Assembly: GCA_024707405.1 (NCBI GenBank)
Contig: JANPZU010000002.1
Location: 62,001 to 126,000 of the forward strand
Origin: Luteimonas sp.
GTDB taxonomy: Bacteria; Pseudomonadota; Gammaproteobacteria; Xanthomonadales; Xanthomonadaceae
Length of the DNA stretch: 64,000 bases
Reading direction: 5' to 3'
Shown here: positions 3,667 to 18,523 of the stretch, piece by piece
Numbering within the stretch: the stretch's first letter is position 1
How the letters are laid out: each line of letters starts with the position of its first letter
Notes under the pieces: model-generated
Databases searched by the model: none
The model's input: the letters and a program-made list of their open reading frames with translations, nothing else
Told to the model about the DNA's origin: nothing
Translations under genes and position numbers: made by a program

Positions 3667-3684
3667 TGAAAACGATTACATTTG
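3667..3684 (+). promoter_or_regulatory. Candidate LacI-family operator, site 1 (TGAAAACGATTACATTTG), upstream of the GH3 gene
   Basis: Matches four other sites in the window (6341, 7479, 10598, 25977); 28 bp before the GH3 start at 3712. Confidence 0.75.
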
Positions 3685-3711
3685 CCGTCCACGCGATGCC
3701 GGGAGGGCGCC

Positions 3712-6000
3712 ATGTCGCGCGACGCCGAAGCCATGACCCCAAATGCCATGTTGACCGGCCTGCTGGCCGTTGCCTTGACCACCCCCGTTTCCACGACTGC
3801 GCGGGAAACCCCCAGGATCAACCACAGTTCCGCGGGTGACCGCGCTGCCGAGAAGGCTTTCGTGGACGCGCTGCTGGCCAAGATGACGCTGGAAGAAAAA
3901 CTGGGCCAGCTCAACCAGCCGCCGGGCGTGGGCAATCATACCGGGCCGGAAGCGATGGCCGGCAACGAAGACCAGATCCGCCGCGGCGAGATCGGTTCGT
4001 TCTTCGGCACCCATGGCGTCGAGCTGACCTGTCGCCTGCAGAAGATCGCGGTGGAGGAAACCCGGCTCGGCATCCCGCTGATCTTCGCGTACGACGTGAT
4101 CCACGGGCATCGCACGGTGTTCCCGGTGCCGCTGGCCGAGGCGGCGAGCTTCGATGCCGAGGAAGTGCGCATCGCCGCGCGCCATGCCGCGGTCGAGGCG
4201 TCCGCGCACGGCATCCACTGGGTGTTCGCGCCGATGGTGGACATTGCCCGCGACCCGCGATGGGGCCGCATCGTCGAAGGCGCGGGCGAAGACCCGTACC
4301 TGGGGTCGGTGATGGCCGCGGCGCGCGTGCGTGGTTTCCAGGGCGACGACCTGGCGGCGGTGGATACCGTGCTGGCGACCGCCAAGCATTTCGTGGCCTA
4401 CGGCGCCGCCGAGGGCGGGCGCGACTACAACACCGCCGAGATTTCCGAGCGCACCTTGCACGAGGTGTACCTGCCGCCGTTCAAGGCCTCGGTGGATGCG
4501 GGCGCCGAATCAATCATGGCCGCGTTCAACGACATCGCGGGCGTGCCGATGCACGCGCATCGCGACCTGATCGAAGGCCTGCTGCGAGAGCAGTGGGGCT
4601 GGGACGGCGTGCTGGTCAGCGACTACACCGGGATCATGGAGCTGATGCCGCACGGCGTGGCCGCCAACCGCGAAGACGCCGGCGTGCTGGGCATCAATGC
4701 CGGCGTGGACGTCGACCTCGTCAGCCGCATCTATTACGAAGACCTGCCGGCGGCGGTGCGTGCCGGGCGCGTGTCGATGGAGCAGATCGACGCATCGGTA
4801 CGCCGCATGCTCAACGCGAAGTACCGTTCCGGCCTGTTCGATGACCCGTACCGTTACTGCAAGGATCCGGCACGTGAAGTCGCGCTGACGCTCAATCCGG
4901 AGCAGCGTGCCGCCGCGCGGCGCATGGCACAGAAGTCTTTCGTGCTGCTGGAGAACGACAATGCAACGTTGCCGCTGTCGAAGTCGCTGCGCACGCTTGC
5001 GGTGATCGGGCCGCTGGCCGACCACCGCCAGTCGATGCTGGGCAACTGGGCCGTCGCCGGTCGCCAGGAAGACGTGGTGACGCCGATCGAAGGCTTGCAG
5101 GCGGCGCTGGGCGACGGCACGCGCTTGATCGTCGCACGCGGCTCCGGCGTCGAAGACATGGATGCGTCCGGCATCGCCGAAGCAGTGCGCGCGGCGGAGC
5201 AGGCCGATGCGGTGGTGATGTTCCTCGGCGAGCATCCGGACATGAGTGCCGAGGCGCACAACCGCACTTCGCTCGACCTGCCGGGCGTGCAGGAACAATT
5301 GGCGCTCGCGGTCGCGGCGACCGGCAAGCCCGTCGTCGTGGTGCTGCTCAACGGCAGGCCGCTGTCCATCGGTGCCTTGCAGGGCAAGGTGGGCGCGGTG
5401 CTCGAAGCCTGGTTCCCGGGCGTCGAAGGCGGCAACGCCATCGCCGACGTGCTGTTCGGCGACGTCAACCCGTCCGGCAAGTTGCCGGTGACGTTCCCGC
5501 GCAACGTTGGCCAGGTACCGACCTACTACGCGCACAAGGCGACCGGTCGCCCGCCGCGCGAGGAAGAGAAATACACCAGCAAGTACATCGACGTGCCGTG
5601 GACGCCGCTATATCCGTTCGGTCATGGCCTGAGCTACACCACGTTCGGTTACGACCAGTTGGCGGTTGCGCAGGCGAAGGTGCCGGTCGGCGAGCCGCGC
5701 CAGCAGGTAAGCGTGCGCGTGACCAATACCGGCAAGCGCGCGGGTGACGAAGTGGTGCAGCTGTACGTGCGAGACGACTTCGGCAGCGTGGCGCGCCCGG
5801 TCAGGCAACTGCGCGGGTTCCAGCGCGTGTCGCTGCAGCCGGGCGAATCGCGGACGGTGACCTTCGAACTCGGGTTCGATGATCTCGCGTTGCTCGACGC
5901 CAAACTCAAGTCGGTGGTGGAGCCGGGCACGTTCACGGTCTTCGTCGGCGGCGATTCCGACGCTTCGCTCGAAGCGAAGTTCGAGGTCGTCGCGCCCTGA
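3712..6000 (+). CDS. bglX: Glycoside hydrolase family 3 beta-glucosidase, exported (BglX-like)
   Basis: ORF 772 aa; start chosen at MSRDAEAMTPN after a GGGAGG RBS; DPRWGRIVEGAGEDPYL, VLVSDYTGIMEL nucleophile region, C-terminal fibronectin-III-like domain; N-terminal signal-like segment. Confidence 0.9.
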   Translation: MSRDAEAMTPNAMLTGLLAVALTTPVSTTARETPRINHSSAGDRAAEKAFVDALLAKMTLEEKLGQLNQPPGVGNHTGPEAMAGNEDQIRRGEIGSFFGTHGVELTCRLQKIAVEETRLGIPLIFAYDVIHGHRTVFPVPLAEAASFDAEEVRIAARHAAVEASAHGIHWVFAPMVDIARDPRWGRIVEGAGEDPYLGSVMAAARVRGFQGDDLAAVDTVLATAKHFVAYGAAEGGRDYNTAEISERTLHEVYLPPFKASVDAGAESIMAAFNDIAGVPMHAHRDLIEGLLREQWGWDGVLVSDYTGIMELMPHGVAANREDAGVLGINAGVDVDLVSRIYYEDLPAAVRAGRVSMEQIDASVRRMLNAKYRSGLFDDPYRYCKDPAREVALTLNPEQRAAARRMAQKSFVLLENDNATLPLSKSLRTLAVIGPLADHRQSMLGNWAVAGRQEDVVTPIEGLQAALGDGTRLIVARGSGVEDMDASGIAEAVRAAEQADAVVMFLGEHPDMSAEAHNRTSLDLPGVQEQLALAVAATGKPVVVVLLNGRPLSIGALQGKVGAVLEAWFPGVEGGNAIADVLFGDVNPSGKLPVTFPRNVGQVPTYYAHKATGRPPREEEKYTSKYIDVPWTPLYPFGHGLSYTTFGYDQLAVAQAKVPVGEPRQQVSVRVTNTGKRAGDEVVQLYVRDDFGSVARPVRQLRGFQRVSLQPGESRTVTFELGFDDLALLDAKLKSVVEPGTFTVFVGGDSDASLEAKFEVVAP

Positions 6001-6358: not shown

Positions 6359-6385
6359 ATTCATGTGGTCATCCGTGGAGGGCGG

Positions 6386-7411
6386 ATGAGCGTCACGATC
6401 AAAGACGTCGCACGTCAGGCCAATGTCTCGGTTGCGACCGTTTCGCGGGCGCTCAATGGCCACCAGAACGTCGCCGAGGACGTCCGCAAGCGCGTCCTCA
6501 GCGTCGCCAGCGAGCTTCGCTACAGCCCGCACCATGCCGCCCGCAGCCTCAGCAGCCGCCGCACCAACACCATCGGCGTGGTGTTGCCGGATCTTTACGG
6601 CGAATTCTTCTCCGAGCTGATGCGCGGGATCGACCAGGTCGCCCGTGAGCGCGGGCTGCACCTGCTGGTCTCGAGCTACCACGGCAACCCCCGGGAGCAG
6701 GGCGATGCGCTGCGGGCGATGCGTGGCCGCGTCGACGGCCTGCTGCTGATGTCCCCGTTCGTCGGGAATGCCGACTTCATCGCCGAAAACCTCGCGCAGC
6801 AGATGCCCGTCGTGCTCATGAACACCGCGACGCCCGCTTCCGGCCATGCCACCCTGTCGGTCGATGGCTACGGCGGTGCGGTAACGATGACGCGGCACCT
6901 GGCCGAGGCCGGCTATCGGCGGATCGCGTTCATCACCGGCCCGGAAGGCAACTTCGATGCCAGCGAGCGGCTGCGCGGCTATCGCGACGCCATGGCCGAA
7001 GTGCTGCCCGGCATCGAGCCATGGGTGTTGCAGGGTGATTTCGACGAGGCCTCGGGGCATCGCGCAGGCCAGGCATTGCTGGCGGCACCCGAGCGCCCGG
7101 ATGCCGTGTTCGCCGCAAACGACATGATGGCGCTGGGCTGCCTGTTCGCCTTCAACCAGGCCGGCGTCCGCGTGCCTGCCGACATTGCGCTGGCCGGGTT
7201 CGACGACATCCCGCTTGCACGCTACGTACACCCGGCGCTGACGACGATGCGCGTCGAGATCGCCGAACTTGGCGCGCGCGCGATCCGGATGCTGCTGGAT
7301 ACGGCGAACGGGCCGGCGCCCCAGGCGTCGCTCTCGCCGGTGCTGGTCGTTCGCGAATCGAGTGCCGGCCCGCGTGGTCGAGGAGAGGCGATGCCGACGC
7401 GATCGGGTTGA
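6386..7411 (+). CDS. LacI family transcriptional regulator
   Basis: MSVTIKDVARQANVSVATVSRALNGHQNVAEDVRKRVLSVASELRYSPHHAARSLSSRRTNTIGVVLPD: classic LacI HTH plus periplasmic-binding-like domain. Confidence 0.96.
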   Translation: MSVTIKDVARQANVSVATVSRALNGHQNVAEDVRKRVLSVASELRYSPHHAARSLSSRRTNTIGVVLPDLYGEFFSELMRGIDQVARERGLHLLVSSYHGNPREQGDALRAMRGRVDGLLLMSPFVGNADFIAENLAQQMPVVLMNTATPASGHATLSVDGYGGAVTMTRHLAEAGYRRIAFITGPEGNFDASERLRGYRDAMAEVLPGIEPWVLQGDFDEASGHRAGQALLAAPERPDAVFAANDMMALGCLFAFNQAGVRVPADIALAGFDDIPLARYVHPALTTMRVEIAELGARAIRMLLDTANGPAPQASLSPVLVVRESSAGPRGRGEAMPTRSG

Positions 7412-7533: not shown

Positions 7534-10500
7534 ATGAAACGCAAGCTCCATACCGCTGTCAGACTCAATCGCAGCCTGCTGTGCTGCGCGTTGGCGGGTT
7601 GCATGCTGATGGCCGCGCCGCACGCGTTCGCGCAGTCCACCTCGGCGACGCTGCAGGGACGGGTATCGGCGGATTCGGCGCCGGCCACCGATGCGCGCGT
7701 CACTGCCACCAACCTTGCCACCGGCCTCACGCGCACCGTGCAGACCAGCGCGAGCGGCGGCTACAACGTCGGCGGCCTGCCGCCAGGTACGTACCGCATC
7801 GACGTGACCGCGGGCGGGCAGACCACGTCGCGCAACATCACCCTGGCCGTGGGCCAGACCGCGACGCTCAACCTTGGCGTCGGCGGCGAAGCCGAGACCG
7901 CCGCGGCGGAAGCGCGCGACCTTGACACCGTTGTGGTGACCGGCGCGGCGATGGTGGAGACTAAGACCTCGGAGATCGCAACGTATGTGTCGGCAAAGCA
8001 AATCGATGCACTACCGCAGGCATCCCGCAATTTCCTAGCCTTTGCAGATATTGTTCCAGGCGTAACGTTTCGAACTGGCGCGGATGGGTCTACGTCGCTG
8101 CGCAGCGTCCACAGCTCTCCAGCGGGATTAACGTCTTCATCGATGGCGTCGGCCAGAAGGATTATGTGCTCAAGGGCGGAGTGACTGGCCAAGATTCCAG
8201 TCGCGGCAATCCATTCCCCCAATTGGGCATCGCCGAGTACAAGGTCGTGACTTCGAATTACAAAGCGGAGTACGACCAGTTGAGTAGTGCGGGAATTACT
8301 GCGGTCACTCGGTCGGGCACCAATGAGTTTTCGGGTGAATTCTTTTGGGACAAGACCTCAGATGACTGGCGCAAGCCGACCCCTGCGGAGTCAGTGGCAG
8401 GAAACAAGATACCTTCGAGCGAGGAGCAGTACGGAGTCGCGTTTGGTGGCCCCATCGTCCGTGATCTCATGCATTTCTTTGTGACCTACGAGGCCAAGGA
8501 GTACAACTCGCCACGCACGATTACCCCGGGGCGCAACCTAGCGATCGAAGATCTCCCGCCGCAGTTCCAAGATGCAGCGAGGCAGCCGGCTGCTGTTCCT
8601 TTCAAGGAGGATCTCTACTTTGGCAAGTTAAGTTGGACACCCGGCGAAGCTCATCTTGTTGAATTGACTTTCAAGCGACGTGAAGAAGATGAGGTAACCA
8701 ATGTCGGCAATGGGCCGAATACACTTGAGCGGGCGACGCTCAAGACCGGAGAGGAAACGCGTGTTGATTTGCGATATCAGTTCAGTTCAATGAATTGGTT
8801 GAATGATGCTCACGTTACCTTTGAAGAAGCAAACTTCGCACCACGTCCAGCAACACTCACAAACGGTGTCCGGCTCTTTATTCCCAGGCAAGGCCAAGAG
8901 ACCGTCAATAACCCCGACATGGATCTGGTTCTGAGTCTGGGAGGCGGGGGTGACTTTCAGAGCAAGGGGCAGAAGGGCTATTCGTTCCAGAACGACCTGA
9001 CATTCTATGGATGGGAGGCGCACACCATCAAAATGGGTGTGAAGTATAAGAAGATAGATATCAGTGCCTTTGAGCAGTCACCGTTCAGCCCGCAATTCGA
9101 ATACGACATAACCCAGAGCACGACGATTCCTTACTTCGTCCAGTTCACGGCCTCCGGGAACAATTTGCCGACTACTGTGGAGTCAGATGCGACACAGTTC
9201 GGAATATATATCCAAGATGATTGGATCGTCACGGATCGTCTCACACTCAATCTCGGTATCCGATGGGATTACGAGAAGAACCCAAGTTATGAGAGGCATG
9301 TAACCCCCCGACACGCTATCCAGCAGGCTGCGCGAGTATGTAAGTACGCGGCCGAACATGGATTACGACATCGAGGATTACATCAGCAATGGCGGCAACC
9401 GTAGTTCCTTTAAAGGTGGACTTGCACCTAGGTTGGGGTTCTCTTACGACCTCACCGGGGGGCAAAGACACGTCGTTTTTGGTGGCGCAGGGCGTTCCTA
9501 CAACAGGAACCAATTCGATTACCTCGCATATGAGCAGTACAGACTCGCGTTTCAGCGGTACCAGTTTTATTTCAACGCACCTGGTCACGATTGCTCTGAC
9601 CCGGAACGGCCAAGGAATCCATGCATTGATTGGGATCCATCTCTGCTAAACCCTGATGCGCTCGCCGATCTGATCGTACCCGGAAGCAATTTCGGTGCTG
9701 AGGTCTTCCTGCTCAACAATGATTTGAAGACGCCATATTCCGATCAGTTCAGCTTAGGAATAAGGAATACATTCGCCGTGTTAGGGCATGACTGGAGCTC
9801 ATCAGTCACTCTTCAGCACATTAGGAGTCATGATGGAATTCTGTTCTCGATCGGAAATCGCAGGCAGGATGGCAGTTTCTATCCGCCTGGAGTCGAGTTT
9901 GGGGAATTCTCCAGGAGCCGATTTGCCCGGTTACAACCGATTTTTTCGGGGAGACAATGCGGTGGAAACAAGGCTGAATGCAGTCTTGGTTTCTCTAGAC
10001 AAGCCGTATACAGAATCATCGCGCTGGGGCAGTAGCTTCGCTTATACATACAACGAAGCGACGGAAAATCGAGGAAGCTCCGATATCTTCACCTTCGACT
10101 ATCCAAATCTGGACAATATTGGCTTCATCCGTTCGACCGGGATTCCGAAACACAAGATTGTCGCAACCGGCATAGGTGAATTCATGGGGCTCATGCTTTC
10201 AGGGAAAGTTACGTGGACTAGTCCTCCCGGCAATACGGGTCTGAATTGTTTCGAGGGCGTCGACCCTGGGGCTTGCAACGTTGTCGGACGCTTTGAAACC
10301 TACTATTTCAAAGATCAGGATTTCTTTCAGCTCGACCTTGCTGCACAAAAGGAATGGGATACAGGTGGCGGTATCAAGTTTCGCATCCGAGGTGATGTGC
10401 TCAATGTGACAAACGAAATGAACTACACTGATTTTGGCAACTTCATCGGCGTTGGTGGCGTGGTGAATCCCGATTTCGGTCGGCGTACGGGGCTCAACAT

Positions 10501-10549
10501 CACCGGCCCGACCCGCACCTTCAAACTATCGTTCGGTCTGGATTGGTAA
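7534..10549 (+). pseudogene. TonB-dependent receptor (Oar-like, with N-terminal carboxypeptidase-regulatory-like domain), interrupted by three frameshifts
   Basis: Split over ORFs 7408-8184, 8166-9404, 9358-10035 and 9788-10549. Continuity is restored by single-base corrections at ~8110 (GG read as G), ~9304-9311 (C6 read as C5) and ~9902-9906 (GGGG read as GGG). Signal peptide MKRKLHTAVRLNRSLLCCALAGCMLMAAPHAFAQ; motifs SAGITAVTRSGTNEFSGEFFWD, LGFSYDLTGGQRHVVFGGAGRSYNR, C-terminal TRTFKLSFGLDW. Confidence 0.82.
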
Positions 10550-10631: not shown

Positions 10632-12266
10632 ATGCACAAAAAATTCCTGCAACCACTTCCTTATCTGTTCTTGTCGCTCCTGCTGGCCATCGCACTGGGC
10701 GGGTGTCGTCAGGCGCCTGCACCGGTGGATGCCGATGCGCCGAAGCCCGGCCCGATCCCGCAGGTGGTGGTCGAGCCCGAAGTAGAAGCCGCGCCGGCAC
10801 GGCCGGAACTGCCGCCACTGTTCCGGGACATCGAGCGGCGCACGTTCCAGTTCTTCTGGGACACCACCAACGACGTCAACGGACTCACGCCGGATCGCTA
10901 TCCATCGCGCCCGTTTTCCAGCATCGCCGCCGTCGGCTTCGCGCTGACCGCATATCCCATCGGTATCGAGAATGGCTGGGTCAGCCGTACGCAGGCGGTG
11001 GATCGCACGCTGACCACGCTGAAGTTCCTGCATGCGGCCCCGCAAGGCCCTGCGGCCACTGGCACGGCCGGGCACAAGGGCTTCTTCTACCACTTCATCG
11101 ACATGACCGACGGCCATCGCTACAACTCGTGGGTCGAGTTGTCGAGCGTCGACACCGGTCTGATGATGATGGGCGTGCTGTTCGCGCAGTCTTATTACGA
11201 TGGCGACGATCCGCGTGAAGTCGAGATCCGCGAGCTGGCGGACAAGCTGTACCGCAACGTGCAGTGGCCTTGGCTGCAGCAGCGCAAGCCGCTGATCTCG
11301 ATGGGCTGGTATCCAGACAGGGGCTTCATCCCGCACGACTGGAATGGATACGACGAGGCGATGCTGGTCTACATCCTGGCGCTTGGTTCGCCGACGCATC
11401 CGGTCGAGCCCGAAGCGTGGGAAGCATGGACGCGCAGCTACGGCAACGAATGGGGCGTGTTCCAGGGGCAGGAGTACCTGAGCTTCGCGCCGCACTTCGG
11501 CCACCAGTACTCGCATACCTGGATCGATTTTCGCGGTATCCGCGATACGTACATGCGCGATCGCGGCATGGACTATTTCGAGAACAGCCGGCGTGCAACC
11601 TACGCGCAGCGGGCCTATGCCATCGAGAACCCGATGCAATGGAAGGGCTACGGTGAGAATGTCTGGGGGCTGACCGCCAGCGATGGCCCGCAGCACACCA
11701 CGCAGACCTTCCGCGGCGAACAGCGCGAGTTCCGCCACTACAGTGCGCGCGGCGCGGGCCTGAGCAATGCGTTCGACGACGGCACCATCGCACCGACGGC
11801 GGCGGTGGCCTCCATCGCGTTCGCACCGGAAATCGTGATTCCCGCGACCGAGGAAATGCATCGTCGCTACGGCGAGTTCCTGTATTCCAGCTACGGATTC
11901 CTGGATTCCTTCAATCCGAGTTTCGATTTCGACATCCCGGTCAAGACCGGGCGCATCGTGCCGGGGCAGGGTTGGGTGGCGAGCGATTACATCGCCATCG
12001 ACCAGGGGCCGATCCTGGCGATGATCGCCAATTACCGGAATGACTTCGTCTGGAACGTGATGAAGAAGAATCCGTACATCCGCAAGGGACTGGAACGTGC
12101 CGGATTCACCGGCGGCTGGCTGGCGCCGCCGGATGGCCCGCAGACCTCCGGTGCGCCGGATCCCGAAGCTGCCGCGGCCGAGGACATCGGCAAGGCGCAG
12201 CAGCGCATGCCGCTGCCAGCAGACGCGCAGCCGGTCGAACCGAGGGCCTCCGAGCCGCCGCAGTAG
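10632..12266 (+). CDS. GH144/COG5368 'glucoamylase-family' lipoprotein (possible beta-1,2-glucan hydrolase)
   Basis: Lipobox LGGC; RRTFQFFWDTTNDVNGLTPDRYPS, GYPRGW-type GWYPDRGFIPHDWNGYDEAMLVYILALGSPTHPV, YLSFAPHFGHQYSHTWIDFRGIRDTYM, YGENVWGLTASDGP. Family call by motif memory. Confidence 0.72.
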   Translation: MHKKFLQPLPYLFLSLLLAIALGGCRQAPAPVDADAPKPGPIPQVVVEPEVEAAPARPELPPLFRDIERRTFQFFWDTTNDVNGLTPDRYPSRPFSSIAAVGFALTAYPIGIENGWVSRTQAVDRTLTTLKFLHAAPQGPAATGTAGHKGFFYHFIDMTDGHRYNSWVELSSVDTGLMMMGVLFAQSYYDGDDPREVEIRELADKLYRNVQWPWLQQRKPLISMGWYPDRGFIPHDWNGYDEAMLVYILALGSPTHPVEPEAWEAWTRSYGNEWGVFQGQEYLSFAPHFGHQYSHTWIDFRGIRDTYMRDRGMDYFENSRRATYAQRAYAIENPMQWKGYGENVWGLTASDGPQHTTQTFRGEQREFRHYSARGAGLSNAFDDGTIAPTAAVASIAFAPEIVIPATEEMHRRYGEFLYSSYGFLDSFNPSFDFDIPVKTGRIVPGQGWVASDYIAIDQGPILAMIANYRNDFVWNVMKKNPYIRKGLERAGFTGGWLAPPDGPQTSGAPDPEAAAAEDIGKAQQRMPLPADAQPVEPRASEPPQ

Positions 12267-12276
12267 ACTCCCGCGC

Positions 12277-13545
12277 ATGCGCAAGCCCGTCGCCCTGCTG
12301 GCACTCCTGTTCGCGTTCGCCTTGGGCGCGTGCGCGAAGGGCGACGGCACCACGACCATCCGCTTCTGGGCAATGGGCAAGGAAGCGGAAGTCGTGGCGG
12401 AGTTGATCCGAGACTTCGAACGCGAACATCCGGGCATCCGGGTCGAAGTGCAGGCGATCCCGATGACCGCCGCGCACGAAAAGCTCCTGACGGCGTGGGC
12501 CGCGGATGGTTTGCCGGACATCTGCCAGCTCGGCAACACCTGGATCCCAGAGTTCGCCACGCTGGGCGCACTGGAACCCTTGCAGTCGCATGTCGATGCC
12601 TCCGCCGTCATTGATGAGGGCGATTATTTCCCCGGCATCTGGGACACCAGCGTCGTCGATGGCGAACTGCTGGGCGTGCCGTGGTACGTCGATACCCGGC
12701 TGCTGTTCTACCGCAAGGACATCCTGGCCGAAGCCGGGTTCGACACGCCGCCGACCACGTGGGCCGAGTGGGAGCGAGCGATGGCGGCGATCAAGCGCAA
12801 CGTCGGGCCGGATCGCTACGCCATCCTGCTGCCGGTCAACGAGTTCGAGCAGCAATTGTCGCTGGCCTTGCAGCAGGACGACCCGCTCCTCCGCGACGAC
12901 GACGGTTACGGCAATTTCCGCAGCCCCGGTTTCCGCAAGGCGCTGGCGTTCTACGCCAACATGTTCGACCAGGGCTGGGCGCCGAAGATGTCGGAGACCG
13001 AGATCTCCAACGTCTGGGATGAATTCTTCAACGGTTTCTACGCGTTCTACCTGTCGGGGCCATGGAACATCCGAGAGTTCAGGCGACGCCAACCAGCCAG
13101 CCTCGAAGGAAAGTGGTCGACGATGCCGTTGCCCGGCCCGGATGGCCCCGGTGCAGGCATCGCCGGCGGCGCGAGCTTGGTGCTGTTCCGCTCGTCCGAG
13201 CACAAAGCCGAGGCGTGGTTGCTGGTGGAATATCTGTCGCGTCCCGACGTGCAGGAGCGTTTCCATGCATTGATCGGCAACTTGCCGCCACGTCGCAGCA
13301 CGTGGGAGTCGCCGGCCCTGCAGCAGGATGAACTGGCGACGGCGTTCCGCGACCAACTGGAGCGGGTAAAACCGGTGCCGAAGGTGCTGGAGTGGGAGCG
13401 CATCGTGCAGGAAATGCGCTTGGCGACCGAGCGCGTGGTGCGCGGCGGTCAAGCGCAGGAGAGTGCCTTGTCCGATCTCGATGCGCGTGTCGACGGCATC
13501 CTCGAAAAGCGCCGCTGGGTGCTGGAACAAGGGGCCGAACGATGA
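12277..13545 (+). CDS. Sugar ABC transporter substrate-binding lipoprotein (family 1 SBP)
   Basis: MRKPVALLALLFAFALGACAKGDGTTTIRFWAMGKEAEVVAELIRDFEREHPGIRVEVQ; lipobox LGAC; followed by two permeases. Confidence 0.92.
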   Translation: MRKPVALLALLFAFALGACAKGDGTTTIRFWAMGKEAEVVAELIRDFEREHPGIRVEVQAIPMTAAHEKLLTAWAADGLPDICQLGNTWIPEFATLGALEPLQSHVDASAVIDEGDYFPGIWDTSVVDGELLGVPWYVDTRLLFYRKDILAEAGFDTPPTTWAEWERAMAAIKRNVGPDRYAILLPVNEFEQQLSLALQQDDPLLRDDDGYGNFRSPGFRKALAFYANMFDQGWAPKMSETEISNVWDEFFNGFYAFYLSGPWNIREFRRRQPASLEGKWSTMPLPGPDGPGAGIAGGASLVLFRSSEHKAEAWLLVEYLSRPDVQERFHALIGNLPPRRSTWESPALQQDELATAFRDQLERVKPVPKVLEWERIVQEMRLATERVVRGGQAQESALSDLDARVDGILEKRRWVLEQGAER

Positions 13546-13561: not shown

Positions 13562-13640
13562 CGTAGAGCCGAGTTTGCTCGGCTGCTTTCGTGGGGGGCA
13601 ATTTGACTGCCGAAACAGCCGAGCAAGCTCGGCTCTACGC
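13562..13640. repeat. SMAG/REP-like GTAG palindrome pair (R1) between the SBP and permease genes
   Basis: CGTAGAGCCGAGTTTGCTCGGCTGC ... GCCGAGCAAGCTCGGCTCTACG inverted arms; same family as 18614, 19486, 19585, 41499. Confidence 0.85.
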
Positions 13641-13659
13641 ATGGCTTGCGGAGCGACGC

Positions 13660-14538
13660 ATGCGCGCTAGCCTGGCCGGCTGGGTCTTCGCCGCACCTGC
13701 ACTGGTCGTGCTGCTGGTGTTCTTCGGCCTGCCGGTGCTGGCGGCGTTGCTGCTCAGCCTGACCGATTTCGATCTCTACGCGCTGGCCGACAGCCGCAAC
13801 CTGCGGTTCGTTGCGTTGGGCAACTACATCGAGCTGCTGCAAACGCCGATGTTCTGGAAGGCACTCGGCAACACCACGTACTTCGTCGTGGTCGGCGTAC
13901 CGTTGTCAATCGCGATTTCGCTGGGCGCGGCATTGCTGCTCAACGCCAAGGTGGCGCGCTTCAAGCCGCTGTTCCGTACCGCGCTGTTCGCACCCGTAGT
14001 GACCACGCTGGTGGCAGTAGCGGTGATCTGGCGGTATCTGTTCCATGCCAGCTACGGGTTGGTGAACTGGGCGTTGGGCCATGTCGGCATCGGGCCGATC
14101 GACTGGCTCGGCGACCCGAACTGGGCGATGCCGACGATCATGCTGTTCGCAGCCTGGAAGAACTTCGGCTACAACATGGTGATCCTGCTGGCAGGGTTGC
14201 AGGCGATCCCGCAGGATCTGTACGAGGCCGCGCGCATCGACGGTGCATCGAAATGGCGCCAGTTCCTGCACATCACCTTGCCGATGCTGGGGCCAGTGCT
14301 GCTGGTGGTCGGCGTGATCACCGTTTCCGGCTACTTCCAGTTGTTCGCCGAGCCCTACGTGATGACACGCGGAGATCCGCTGCAGAGTACGGTCAGCGTG
14401 CTGTATTACATGTTCGAGGAAGGCTTCAAGTGGTGGAACCTCGGCCGCGCGTCGGCGGTGGCATTCCTGCTGTTCCTCATCATCCTGGCGGTGACGGTGG
14501 TTCTGGTGCGCGCCGGGCGCAGGCGGGCGCTGGTATGA
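13660..14538 (+). CDS. Sugar ABC transporter permease (MalF/UgpA type)
   Basis: Start chosen at MRASLAGWVFAAPALVVLLVFF; EAARIDGASKWRQFLHITLPMLGP is the EAA motif. The ORF-track start (13591) would translate part of the repeat (NLTAETAEQARLYAWLAERR). Confidence 0.9.
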   Translation: MRASLAGWVFAAPALVVLLVFFGLPVLAALLLSLTDFDLYALADSRNLRFVALGNYIELLQTPMFWKALGNTTYFVVVGVPLSIAISLGAALLLNAKVARFKPLFRTALFAPVVTTLVAVAVIWRYLFHASYGLVNWALGHVGIGPIDWLGDPNWAMPTIMLFAAWKNFGYNMVILLAGLQAIPQDLYEAARIDGASKWRQFLHITLPMLGPVLLVVGVITVSGYFQLFAEPYVMTRGDPLQSTVSVLYYMFEEGFKWWNLGRASAVAFLLFLIILAVTVVLVRAGRRRALV

Positions 14539-15380
14539 GCGAAGCGATGCGCGATGTCGGTGAATCCCGGCTGCATGCGTGGCTGGTCAACGGTGCCTTG
14601 TTGTCGCTGGCCTTGGTGAGCCTGGCACCGCTGCTCTGGATGGTCTCGGTTTCGTTCATGCCGATGGGCGAGGCCAGCCGCTTCCCGCCACCGCTGCTGC
14701 CGGGCGAGGCGACGCTCGACAACTACCGCAACCTGTTCGCGCGTACCGATGCCGCGCGCAACTTCGTCAATAGCCTGTTCGTCGCCGGGACGATCACGGT
14801 GCTGTCGCTGGTGGTCAATGCGATGGCCGGTTATGCCTTCGCCAAGTTGCGCTTCGCAGGACGTGATCGCATCTTTCAGTTGTTGTTGGCGGCACTGGTC
14901 ATCCCTGCGCAGGTCGCGATGCTGCCGTTGTTCCTGCTGATGAAGGAACTCGGCCTGGTGAACACCTATGCCGGCGTGATCGTCCCGGCGCTGGCGACGG
15001 TATTCGGCATCTTCCTGGTGCGCCAGTATGCACGCAGCATCCCGGACGAATTGCTGGAAGCGGCGCGCATCGACGGTGCAGGGGAGTTGCGAATCTTCTT
15101 CAGCATCGTGCTGCCGATGCTCAAGCCGGTGCTGGTGACGCTGGCGATCTTCACCTTCATGGCGGCGTGGAACGACTTCATGTGGCCCTTGATCGTGCTG
15201 ACCGACCAGGAGCACTACACCTTGCCGGTGGCCCTCGCCGCGCTGTCGCGCGAGCACATCATGGAGGTCGAGATGATGATGGCCGGTGCGGTGGTCACGG
15301 TACTGCCGGTGCTGCTGCTGTTCCTGCTGCTGCAGCGGTACTACATCCAGGGTTTGTTGCTTGGGAGCGTGAAAGGCTGA
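14535..15380 (+). CDS. Carbohydrate ABC transporter permease (MalG/UgpE type)
   Basis: MSEAMRDVGESRLHAWLVNGALLSLALVSLAPLLWMVSVSF; EAARIDGAGELRIFFSIVLPMLKPV EAA motif; ATGA overlap with the upstream permease. Confidence 0.93.
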   Translation: MSEAMRDVGESRLHAWLVNGALLSLALVSLAPLLWMVSVSFMPMGEASRFPPPLLPGEATLDNYRNLFARTDAARNFVNSLFVAGTITVLSLVVNAMAGYAFAKLRFAGRDRIFQLLLAALVIPAQVAMLPLFLLMKELGLVNTYAGVIVPALATVFGIFLVRQYARSIPDELLEAARIDGAGELRIFFSIVLPMLKPVLVTLAIFTFMAAWNDFMWPLIVLTDQEHYTLPVALAALSREHIMEVEMMMAGAVVTVLPVLLLFLLLQRYYIQGLLLGSVKG

Positions 15381-18300
15381 TGATCGTCGTGAATACCGTC
15401 CGTGGAATCGTGGTGTTGCTGGCAGTGGCCGCAACGCAGGTACAGGCACAGGAAGCGGCGAAGCTGCTTGATGGCTTCGAGGACGCCTCGAAGTGGCGCG
15501 TGGTCGCTTCCAACCAGGTCAGCGGCAGCATCCGCAGCATCGATGGCGCGGACGGCAAGGCACTCTGCCTGGATTACGATTTCAACGGGGTGTCCGGTTA
15601 CGTCGGCATCCAGCGCGACCTGGCGCTGCGCTATCCGGAGAACTACCGGTTCGGATTCAAGCTGCGCGGCGACTCGCCGGACAACGACCTGCAGTTCAAG
15701 CTGGTCGATGCCAGCGGGGACAACGTCTGGTGGGTGAACCGGCCGAAGTACGACTACCCGAAGGCGTGGACGGATGTCCGCTACCGCAAGCGCCACATCA
15801 GCAAGGCATGGGGGCCTGATCCGGATCCGGCGTTGCGCGCGACCGAGAAGGTCGAATTCACGCTCTATGCGAATGCCGGCGGCCGCGGCGCGGTCTGCTT
15901 CGACACGTTGACGCTGGAGGAACTCGCGGTCGATGACGGCTCGCCGCTGGTGCCGGTCACTGCGACGGCGAGCGCGTCCACGCAGCAAGCGATGTCCGTC
16001 GCCGATGGCAATGACTCGACGGCGTGGGCTGCACCTGCGGGGCCGCAACGGCTGGTGCTGGATCTGGGACACGCGCGCGAATTCGGCGGGCTGCGGTTGC
16101 AGTGGCTGCCGGGTCGCCACGCGACACGCTATGGCGTTTCCCTGTCCGAGGATGGCGACGACTGGCGCAGCGTCCGTCACGTGTCGGGCAGCAACGGCGG
16201 CGTGGATTGGATTGCATTGCCGGAATCCGAAGCCAGATTCGTGTCCATCGACCTGCAGGAAGGTGGCGATGCTGGATACGCCCTGTCTTCGGTGGGCATC
16301 CAGCCGATCGAATTTTCCGAGAGCCAGAACGATGTCGTCATGGCGATGGCGAAGGAAGCGCCGAGGGGTTGGTTCCCACGCGGTTTTTCCGGTGAGCAGC
16401 CGTACTGGACGATCCTCGGCCTGGACGGTGGCTACCAACAGGGGTTGATCGGTGAGGATGGCGCGGTCGAAGTTGCCAAGGGCGGTTTCAGCATCGAACC
16501 GTTCGTGCTGGTGGATGGCAAGCTGGCCACCTGGCATGACGTGGATGTTTCGCAGTCCTTGCAGGACAACTACCTGCCGATCCCGAGCGTGCGCTGGAAG
16601 CGCAACGACCTCGACCTGGAGGTCACGGCCTTCGCGCATGGCGAACCGCGCCAGTCGCGACTGGTGGCGCGTTATCGGCTTACCAACCCCGGTCGCCGTG
16701 CCCGCGACTACACGTTGGCGCTCGCGGTGCAGCCGTACCAGGTCAATCCGCCGCGACAGTTCCTCAACACGCCCGGTGGCGTGAGCCGGATCGAATCGTT
16801 GTCGTTCGAGGGGGCAACCGCATCGGTCGCGGGCGTTCCCAAGGTGTTTTCCAAGCAGATCCCCGATGCGATGTTCGCCACGCCCTTCGATGGCGGCATG
16901 GTGGTGACCCATCTCGCATCGGGCCGCTTCCCCGCGGTGACTCGGGTGCAGCACGACGAGACCGGACTCGCATCCGGCGCGATGCTGTACCGCATGCGCT
17001 TGGGGCCATGGGAAACGCGCGAGATCCAGGTGATGGTGCCGATGACCGGCAACGCCGGGCTGGAGCGCCGCTGGTGGGATGCGGAGGTATTGCAGGCCGG
17101 CGTGGCCGAAACATGGCGGACGAAGCTCGACCGCGTCAGGATCGAGGTGCCGCAAGCCGCGCAGCCGGTCGCCGATGCGTTGCGCACGGCGCTGGCGCAC
17201 ATGCTGATCTCGCGCATCGGGCCGCGCCTGCAGCCGGGGACGCGTGCCTATGCCCGTAGCTGGATCCGTGATGGCGCGATGATCTCCGAAGGCCTGTTGC
17301 GCATGGGACGCGAGGACGTGGTGAAGGACTACGTCGAGTGGTACGCGCCGTACCAGTTCGAGAACGGCAAGGTGCCGTGCTGCGTGGACGACCGCGGCAG
17401 CGACCCGGTGCCGGAGAACGACAGCCACGGCGAATTGATCTACAACATCGCCGAGTACTGGCGCTATACCAACGACACGGCCTTCCTCGAGAAGATGTGG
17501 CCGCACGTGCTGGGTGCGTTCGAGTACATGGAAGAACTGCGCGCCAGCGTACGCACCGAGGCCAATCGCGCGGTCAATCCTGCGTTCTACGGGATGATGC
17601 CGGCATCGATCAGCCACGAAGGGTATTCGGCCAAGCCGATGCATTCGTACTGGGACAACTTCTGGTCGCTCCGCGGTTACAAGGATGCGGTCGAAGTGGC
17701 GCAGGTGCTCGGCAAGACCGATGTGCTGCCCAGGCTGGTCGCGGCGCGCGACGAGTTCCGCCAAGACCTTCATGCCTCCTTACTCGCGGCGGCGCAGTTG
17801 CATGGCATCGACTTCCTGCCGGGTGCCGCGGAGCTTGGTGATTTCGACCCGACCTCGACCACCATCGCATTGGCTCCGGGCGGCGAGCAGGACTGGTTGC
17901 CACGCGACTTGCTGGACAACACCTTCGAACGCTACTGGCGCGAGTTCGTCGAGCGTCGCGATGGCCAGCGCGAATGGAAGGACTACACGCCCTACGAATG
18001 GCGAAACGTCGCGGCGATGGTGCGACTGGGCTGGCGCGGTCGTGCGAAGGAAGTGTTCGACTGGTTCTTCGACCACCGCGCCCCGCATGCATGGAACCAG
18101 TGGGGCGAAGTGGTGTCGTCCACGCCGCGCGAACCGTTCTTCCTCGGCGACCTGCCGCATGCGTGGGTGGCATCGGACTTCATGCGCTCGGCCATCGAGA
18201 TGTTCGTGTATCCGCGCGAATCGGACGACAGCATCGTGCTGGCGGCCGGTCTGCCTCCGGAATGGCTGGAAGGCAAGGGTGTGTCGATCGACGGCATGCG

Positions 18301-18523
18301 CACGCCGCGCGGCAACCTGCGGTTCTCGCTGCGGCGCGAAGGCGACCGGCTGCTGCTGGATGCCGGCGAGGGACTCGAATTGCCACCCGGCGGACTGGTC
18401 TTGCCGTGGCCGTACGAGGGCACGCCGGGGGCGACCACGCTCAATGGGCAGCCCGCGCAATGGGAGGGGCAGGCGTTGCGGATCACCACGCTGCCCGCCA
18501 GCGTGAGTATCGAAGTGCCGTAA
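15380..18523 (+). CDS. Large secreted protein: discoidin/carbohydrate-binding-like N-terminus plus (alpha/alpha)6-barrel glycosidase-like C-terminus
   Basis: 1047 aa starting MIVVNTVRGIVVLLAVAATQVQAQEAAKLLDGFEDASKW (signal peptide); F5/8-like LVLDLGHAREFGGLRLQWLPGRHATRYGVSLSEDGDDWRSV; TRAYARSWIRDGAMISEGLLRMG and DDRGSDPVPENDSHGELIYNIAEYWRYT resemble six-hairpin glycosidases. Start overlaps the permease stop. Confidence 0.75.
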   Translation: MIVVNTVRGIVVLLAVAATQVQAQEAAKLLDGFEDASKWRVVASNQVSGSIRSIDGADGKALCLDYDFNGVSGYVGIQRDLALRYPENYRFGFKLRGDSPDNDLQFKLVDASGDNVWWVNRPKYDYPKAWTDVRYRKRHISKAWGPDPDPALRATEKVEFTLYANAGGRGAVCFDTLTLEELAVDDGSPLVPVTATASASTQQAMSVADGNDSTAWAAPAGPQRLVLDLGHAREFGGLRLQWLPGRHATRYGVSLSEDGDDWRSVRHVSGSNGGVDWIALPESEARFVSIDLQEGGDAGYALSSVGIQPIEFSESQNDVVMAMAKEAPRGWFPRGFSGEQPYWTILGLDGGYQQGLIGEDGAVEVAKGGFSIEPFVLVDGKLATWHDVDVSQSLQDNYLPIPSVRWKRNDLDLEVTAFAHGEPRQSRLVARYRLTNPGRRARDYTLALAVQPYQVNPPRQFLNTPGGVSRIESLSFEGATASVAGVPKVFSKQIPDAMFATPFDGGMVVTHLASGRFPAVTRVQHDETGLASGAMLYRMRLGPWETREIQVMVPMTGNAGLERRWWDAEVLQAGVAETWRTKLDRVRIEVPQAAQPVADALRTALAHMLISRIGPRLQPGTRAYARSWIRDGAMISEGLLRMGREDVVKDYVEWYAPYQFENGKVPCCVDDRGSDPVPENDSHGELIYNIAEYWRYTNDTAFLEKMWPHVLGAFEYMEELRASVRTEANRAVNPAFYGMMPASISHEGYSAKPMHSYWDNFWSLRGYKDAVEVAQVLGKTDVLPRLVAARDEFRQDLHASLLAAAQLHGIDFLPGAAELGDFDPTSTTIALAPGGEQDWLPRDLLDNTFERYWREFVERRDGQREWKDYTPYEWRNVAAMVRLGWRGRAKEVFDWFFDHRAPHAWNQWGEVVSSTPREPFFLGDLPHAWVASDFMRSAIEMFVYPRESDDSIVLAAGLPPEWLEGKGVSIDGMRTPRGNLRFSLRREGDRLLLDAGEGLELPPGGLVLPWPYEGTPGATTLNGQPAQWEGQALRITTLPASVSIEVP

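Follow-up and report, generated by a model that had tools for sequence, protein, structure and literature searches.

In the 64,000-nucleotide stretch of Luteimonas sp. DNA analyzed here (the window), the gene of an Oar-like TonB-dependent receptor in a putative beta-1,2-glucan locus joins host-like ends to a plug and barrel (7963-10506) of different ancestry. We conclude with high confidence that this segment was replaced, probably through homologous recombination with crossovers in two conserved anchors, and that such replacement is recurrent across the Lysobacteraceae (Xanthomonadaceae). The features of the locus are listed in Table 1.

Table 1. Receptor gene, its parts and its neighbors (positions in the window)
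Feature	Position	Strand	Remarks
GH3 beta-glucosidase, locus member only in some relatives	3682..6000	+	Pfam GH3 N/C and Fn3-like
LacI-family regulator, conserved 5' neighbor	6365..7411	+	Pfam LacI and Peripla_BP_3
Receptor, resident (host-like) part: putative signal peptide, CarboxypepD_reg (Oar-like) domain, TonB-box-like DTVVVTG	7534..7962	+	GC 0.70, GC3 0.87; 84% identical to L. aestuarii
5' anchor VETKTSEIAT...PQxSRNFLAF (plug start)	7953..8043	+	conserved in all barrel classes; 5' breakpoint at anchor start
Replaced cassette: plug and outer-membrane beta-barrel	7963..10506	+	GC 0.51; class common to L. kalidii and P. japonensis; PF25183, PF00593
Frameshift 1: one missing base (LRS|GPQLS)	8107..8108	+	
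Frameshift 2: one extra C in C run	9303..9308	+	
Frameshift 3: one extra G in G run	9898..9901	+	
3' anchor PTRTFKLSFGxDW-stop (last beta strand), host-like	10504..10549	+	3' breakpoint, 10506
GH144-type endo-beta-1,2-glucanase (PF10091), conserved 3' neighbor	10632..12266	+	best PDB match 8xul (XCC2207/XcSGL), E 2e-270
ABC importer sugar-binding protein (SBP)	12268..13545	+	SBP_bac_1; PDB 3uor E 1e-206, Lin1841 5ysb E 3e-66
Two ABC permease genes	13591..15380 (13591-14538, 14535-15380)	+	first: Pfam BPD_transp_1

The receptor and its locus

The receptor is assigned to the Oar-like proteins by its CarboxypepD_reg domain (PF13620, E 1.9e-15 in 7534-8109), and its TonB-dependent beta-barrel was recognized by PF25183 (E 3.9e-32) and PF00593 (E 5.4e-9) in 8118-9302. 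The putative signal peptide was read by eye. In the intact homologues of Luteimonas kalidii (L042), Pseudoxanthomonas japonensis (L043) and Luteimonas aestuarii (L110), the barrel match extends across most of the length; the plug domain PF07715 gave only a subthreshold match, in the L. kalidii homologue (20.6 bits, cut-off 23.9). The core had no match in a search of the PDB.

The order LacI regulator, receptor, PF10091 enzyme and SBP was found in all 20 Luteimonas loci examined (the regulator being syntenic in 20/20), and the permeases come next wherever the fetched stretch extends that far. Loci of Pseudoxanthomonas, Lysobacter, Stenotrophomonas and Xanthomonas have the identical gene order. 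Both permeases gave subthreshold matches to the UgpA/MalF- and UgpE/MalG-like NCBIfam models. Directly 3' of them (15377-18523) lies the gene of a 1,048-residue protein in which an F5/8 type C domain was recognized, along with a region weakly like oligosaccharide amylase. In the window the GH3 enzyme sits 5' of the LacI regulator; its solved relatives in a PDB search include Lin1840 (4zoa) and the periplasmic beta-glucosidases 5xxl and 3u48.

Lin1841 and Lin1840 are proteins of beta-1,2-oligoglucan handling. The receptor stands beside an XcSGL-like glucanase, a Lin1841-like SBP and a Lin1840-like GH3 enzyme, and XcSGL (XCC2207) is a tested beta-1,2-glucanase (PMC12102758). Judging from these neighbors, the cargo of the receptor is likely beta-1,2-glucan. 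The nearest solved relative of the SBP, 3uor, is described as "ABC transporter sugar binding protein" and is not assigned to beta-1,2-glucan, so beta-1,2-glucan is a cargo that we infer.

Composition and ancestry within the gene

A preliminary description of this DNA had noticed a low-GC core in a gene otherwise of about 70% GC, between 7960 and 10460. The computed profile bears this out and is not flat. In 60-base bins, GC falls from 0.73 (7900-7959) to 0.52 (7960-8019), stays at about 0.51 through the receptor core and recovers near 10,505, against a host mean of 0.66. The 5' boundary was thus placed correctly to within a few bases, and the 3' boundary about 45 bases short. In 300-base steps the values are 0.64-0.67 ahead of the core, 0.48-0.56 over 8101-10500 and 0.60-0.65 after it. 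GC3 is 0.87 in codons 7534-7959, 0.53-0.61 in 7960-10504 and 0.67 in the last 15 codons. Of 1,268 windows of 2.4 kb drawn from 424 kb of the genome (mean, 0.658; standard deviation, 0.027), those over the receptor are among the very lowest in GC, and the lowest barrel GC among the other TonB receptor genes of the genome, as found with the Pfam Plug model, is 0.55 versus 0.51-0.52 here. The low-GC core is lacking in L. aestuarii, the closest relative.

Barrel GC is somewhat below flank GC in nearly all relatives, which makes the dip in part a feature of the whole family. The barrel class itself is not always low in GC, since in L. kalidii it has a GC3 of 0.86-0.89. The P. japonensis barrel has a GC3 of 0.61-0.69, and the low GC that it shares with the focal barrel suggests a lower-GC reservoir as the source.

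Three other low-GC regions were seen in the same genome. A TonB receptor with a GC of 0.52-0.58 (L136 7500-11000; G000:C8, about 312-316 kb) is split into frames of 285 and 631 residues and is possibly a second foreign receptor. An intact 1,012-residue TonB receptor (L166; G000:C7, about 110-115 kb) has a GC of 0.55 across the whole frame and is foreign-looking throughout, not mosaic. A third region (L144 9300-12300; G000:C6, about 129-132 kb) is equally low, at 0.515, and holds short open reading frames only.

We compared the parts of the gene and its neighbors with those of the relatives. The flanking genes are 86% identical to those of L. aestuarii and the first ~140 residues of the receptor 84%, whereas the barrel reaches only 51%. 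The plug and barrel are 78% identical to those of L. kalidii and P. japonensis. In 50-residue windows, identity to L. aestuarii is 80, 88 and 82% in the first three and 30-82% after that; identity to P. japonensis is 62, 64 and 58%, then 62-92%, with 88% at the end. Over its last 42 bases the gene is 83-86% identical to several Luteimonas genomes, a likeness that most of the C terminus does not share.

A two-breakpoint likelihood scan on DNA placed the boundaries at 7963 and 10506 with either barrel relative. The likelihood gain was 104.4 for L. aestuarii with P. japonensis and 92 for L. aestuarii with L. kalidii, compared to shuffled maxima of 12.9 and 10.8. Both breakpoints lie within stretches conserved between alleles: mean identity to 80 relatives in the 5' anchor is 0.85 for residues 141-150 and 0.88 for residues 161-170, and GPTRTFKLSF at the 3' end has a mean identity of 0.75.

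Segments of this one gene also give conflicting trees, each with its own support. The flank tree (LacI, glucanase, SBP and ABC genes; 1,578 columns) joins the focal locus to L. aestuarii with an SH-aLRT of 100, and the N-terminal domain tree does the same for the receptor (SH-aLRT 96). In contrast, the plug-and-barrel tree (847 columns) joins the focal receptor to L. kalidii (99) and then to P. japonensis (100). In AU tests, the barrel data rejected the grouping with L. aestuarii (5e-7) and the flank data that with L. kalidii and P. japonensis (2e-5). The N-terminal data rejected the grouping with P. japonensis (3e-4) and did not quite reject that with L. kalidii (0.053). These results agree with the earlier proposal that the barrel was replaced by recombination between conserved ends. 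No close donor at the DNA level was found among the relatives, the best identities being 72% for DNA in the genus and 78% for protein. A plasmid search returned only 3 distant matches.

The reading frame as assembled

The preliminary description had also taken the reading frame to continue through the barrel, which the assembly contradicts. The frame from the ATG at 7534 stops at 8184, and the receptor lies in four pieces (7534-8106, 8109-9305, 9310-9900 and 9905-10549) separated by three 1-base shifts at about 8107, 9306 and 9901, none of the pieces containing an in-frame stop. The shifts were placed by frameshift-aware alignment to the L. kalidii, P. japonensis and L048 proteins. Given these shifts, what we describe is a gene of this family that is broken as assembled, rather than a receptor shown to be functional.

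Other genes of the genome likewise show frameshifts at or close to short base runs (L135 9900-10000, L140 1130-1210 and L142 16490-16590). Shifts at GGGGG and AAAA runs interrupt a RecN-like and a fumarase-like gene (named from sequence motifs), and another TonB receptor (L135) is also shifted. Since genes of the fumarase and RecN types carry like shifts, those in the receptor are probably residual sequencing or assembly errors and not a real inactivation. An imported barrel inactivated by three indels, that is, a genuine recent pseudogene, would also be compatible with the swap. Xanthomonas campestris is known to have four TonB receptor pseudogenes with frameshifts (PMC1790865), and three shifts in 1.8 kb are far denser than elsewhere: 424 kb of the genome, scanned by coding signal, yielded only a handful of strong candidates. 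That density leaves a young pseudogene a real, if minor, chance. Two of the three shifts, however, are single-base gains in short C or G runs and the third is a missing base, runs of this kind break the RecN-like and fumarase-like genes too, and stop codons have not accumulated. We therefore regard inactivation as rather unlikely and sequencing error as the better account.

Barrel exchange across the family

Relatives were gathered by likeness to the focal core, with one genome per species. Among them, pairs of loci with close flanks repeatedly carry distant barrels. Identities in flanks, N terminus and barrel are 95, 92 and 53% for L042/L074; 93, 92 and 53% for L043/L072; 96, 94 and 54% for L055/L075; 96, 84 and 53% for L056/L086; and 89, 76 and 56% for L084/L071. 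In these flank-close pairs, identity drops around the plug start and returns within the final codons or a little after them, and breakpoint scans exceeded all shuffles in 7/7 runs. The 5' breakpoints of four of six genes fall within 50 bp of each other (locus positions 5832-5879; focal gene, 5846), and those of the remaining two lie at 5507 and 5618; the 3' breakpoints of five of six genes fall at 8337-8454.

We placed three barrel classes, defined from the barrel tree itself, on a flank tree with 33 species and counted 14 changes compared to 14.4 after shuffling (fraction at or below the observed value, 0.51). No clonal signal of barrel class was detectable on the flank tree. Distances of the barrel and the N terminus correlate at 0.20, and those of the N terminus and the neighboring genes at 0.41-0.51. 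The LacI and ABC distances correlate at 0.39, indicating a partly independent history among the neighboring genes.

The focal and P. japonensis barrels (78%) are closer than their flanking genes (68%), and the same holds for L084 and P. wuyuanensis (L113), with 82% in the barrel and 66% in the flanks; transfer between lineages is required because of this. The same comparisons weigh on the idea that ancestral tandem copies with different barrels were collapsed by recombination between the copies, with no transfer between species. Tandem receptors with different barrels do occur at this locus, in L. suaedae (L054, 5413-11535) and L. salinisoli (L132). Between these two species, however, the first copies differ in the barrel (54%) and not in the N terminus (82%), the second copies follow vertical descent (84%), and both copies have been kept. 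These copies largely refute collapse as the sole cause, the GC3 of the focal cassette is foreign, and we consider the idea very unlikely.

An assembly chimera, in which receptor alleles of two organisms or strains were joined in a mixed assembly, is about as improbable. A completeness of 92.9% in 8 contigs (3.22 Mb) and scattered frameshifts suggest residual assembly errors, and a multiallelic locus is prone to such joins. Against this, both breakpoints fall in anchors where independently sequenced isolates have theirs too, and no other close copy of the core, silent or otherwise, was found in the genome. Finally, ordinary fast divergence of the resident barrel or relaxed pseudogene decay as the origin of the low GC can practically be dismissed: three frameshifts are present and barrels differ more than neighboring genes in many pairs, but the GC change is a step and not a gradient, the nearest relatives of the cassette are not those of the gene's own N terminus, and the frameshift-aware alignment rejects decay, since apart from the three 1-base shifts ~860 cassette residues align to P. 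japonensis at 75-81% by piece with no stop codon.

Proposed mechanism and biological meaning

According to our model of replacement by recombination, a divergent allele from a lower-GC source would have been brought in and would have recombined at the resident receptor locus, with crossovers at the plug start (VETKTSEIAT) and in the last beta strand (PTRTFKLSFGxDW-stop). The conserved stretches at the two ends (VETKTSEIAT and PQASRNFLAF; GPTRTFKLSF) could supply the homology for crossover between alleles otherwise about 50% identical. The signal peptide, the CarboxypepD_reg domain, the promoter region and the neighboring genes remained resident, and the surface-exposed half would be a cassette drawn from a family-wide pool. 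DNA import is the route that we infer; ComEC, a possible part of it, was found in the genome, although it is so widespread that its presence says little about DNA uptake here.

The repetition of the same swap at the same gene in related bacteria indicates that the barrel behaves as an exchangeable cassette. The likely reason is that variation in the surface part is favored, either for different glucans or for escape from phages or bacteriocins. Retention of the periplasmic N-terminal part and exchange of the part predicted to carry the surface-exposed loops would fit selection by what the cell surface meets. We lean, with moderate confidence, toward a broader reading: that the plug and barrel form a family-wide cassette swapped across Lysobacteraceae genera via two fixed anchors, at a rate that has uncoupled barrel type from the descent of the N terminus and neighbors. 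Such a pattern would imply strong selection on a carbohydrate receptor, diversifying or negative-frequency-dependent, exerted by phages, bacteriocins or the variety of glucans.

The best-known mosaic TonB receptors come from Pseudomonas and Neisseria and serve the uptake of iron and siderophores. FpvA is reportedly a fixed-locus TonB-dependent receptor with divergent alleles, under diversifying selection and spread by recombination. The present receptor resembles it in its fixed locus and in divergent alleles spread by recombination. However, the FpvA allele follows a linked siderophore synthesis cluster within one species, whereas here the locus is one of sugar uptake, the plug and barrel alone move and the exchange crosses genera. 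FpvA diversification in Pseudomonas aeruginosa is referred to Smith et al. 2005 in PMC2235872. In Neisseria FetA/FrpB and similar transporters, the surface-exposed part likewise varies with recombination (PMC3574120, PMC4142384), but this concerns mainly one hypervariable surface region in host-colonizing species, as opposed to a whole plug and barrel of ~850 residues exchanged between environmental genera. In architecture the focal receptor also resembles the Oar-like receptors of the CUT loci and others in Xanthomonas campestris, among them XCC2208, by its number the neighbor of XCC2207. These receptors have an N-terminal Oar-like extension and a weak or absent Pfam Plug match, in carbohydrate loci with a LacI regulator, glycoside hydrolase and transporter (PMC1790865). 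Barrel exchange is not described there, the stem "recombin" being absent from that paper. Full-text searches of open papers on barrel or intragenic recombination in TonB receptors returned no description for this family. Mosaic TonB receptors are thus already known; this locus and this scale appear to be undescribed.

The present case concerns a carbohydrate receptor of environmental bacteria, with domain-level exchange at reproducible breakpoints across genera, while the periplasmic N-terminal domain and the operon stay largely clonal. Whole-protein receptor trees in the Xanthomonadaceae should accordingly be read with caution, as they track barrels and not genomes. The family also supplies a set of naturally barrel-swapped receptors whose N termini are nearly identical, and on these it can be tested directly whether glucan specificity, or sensitivity to phages and bacteriocins, depends on the barrel alone.
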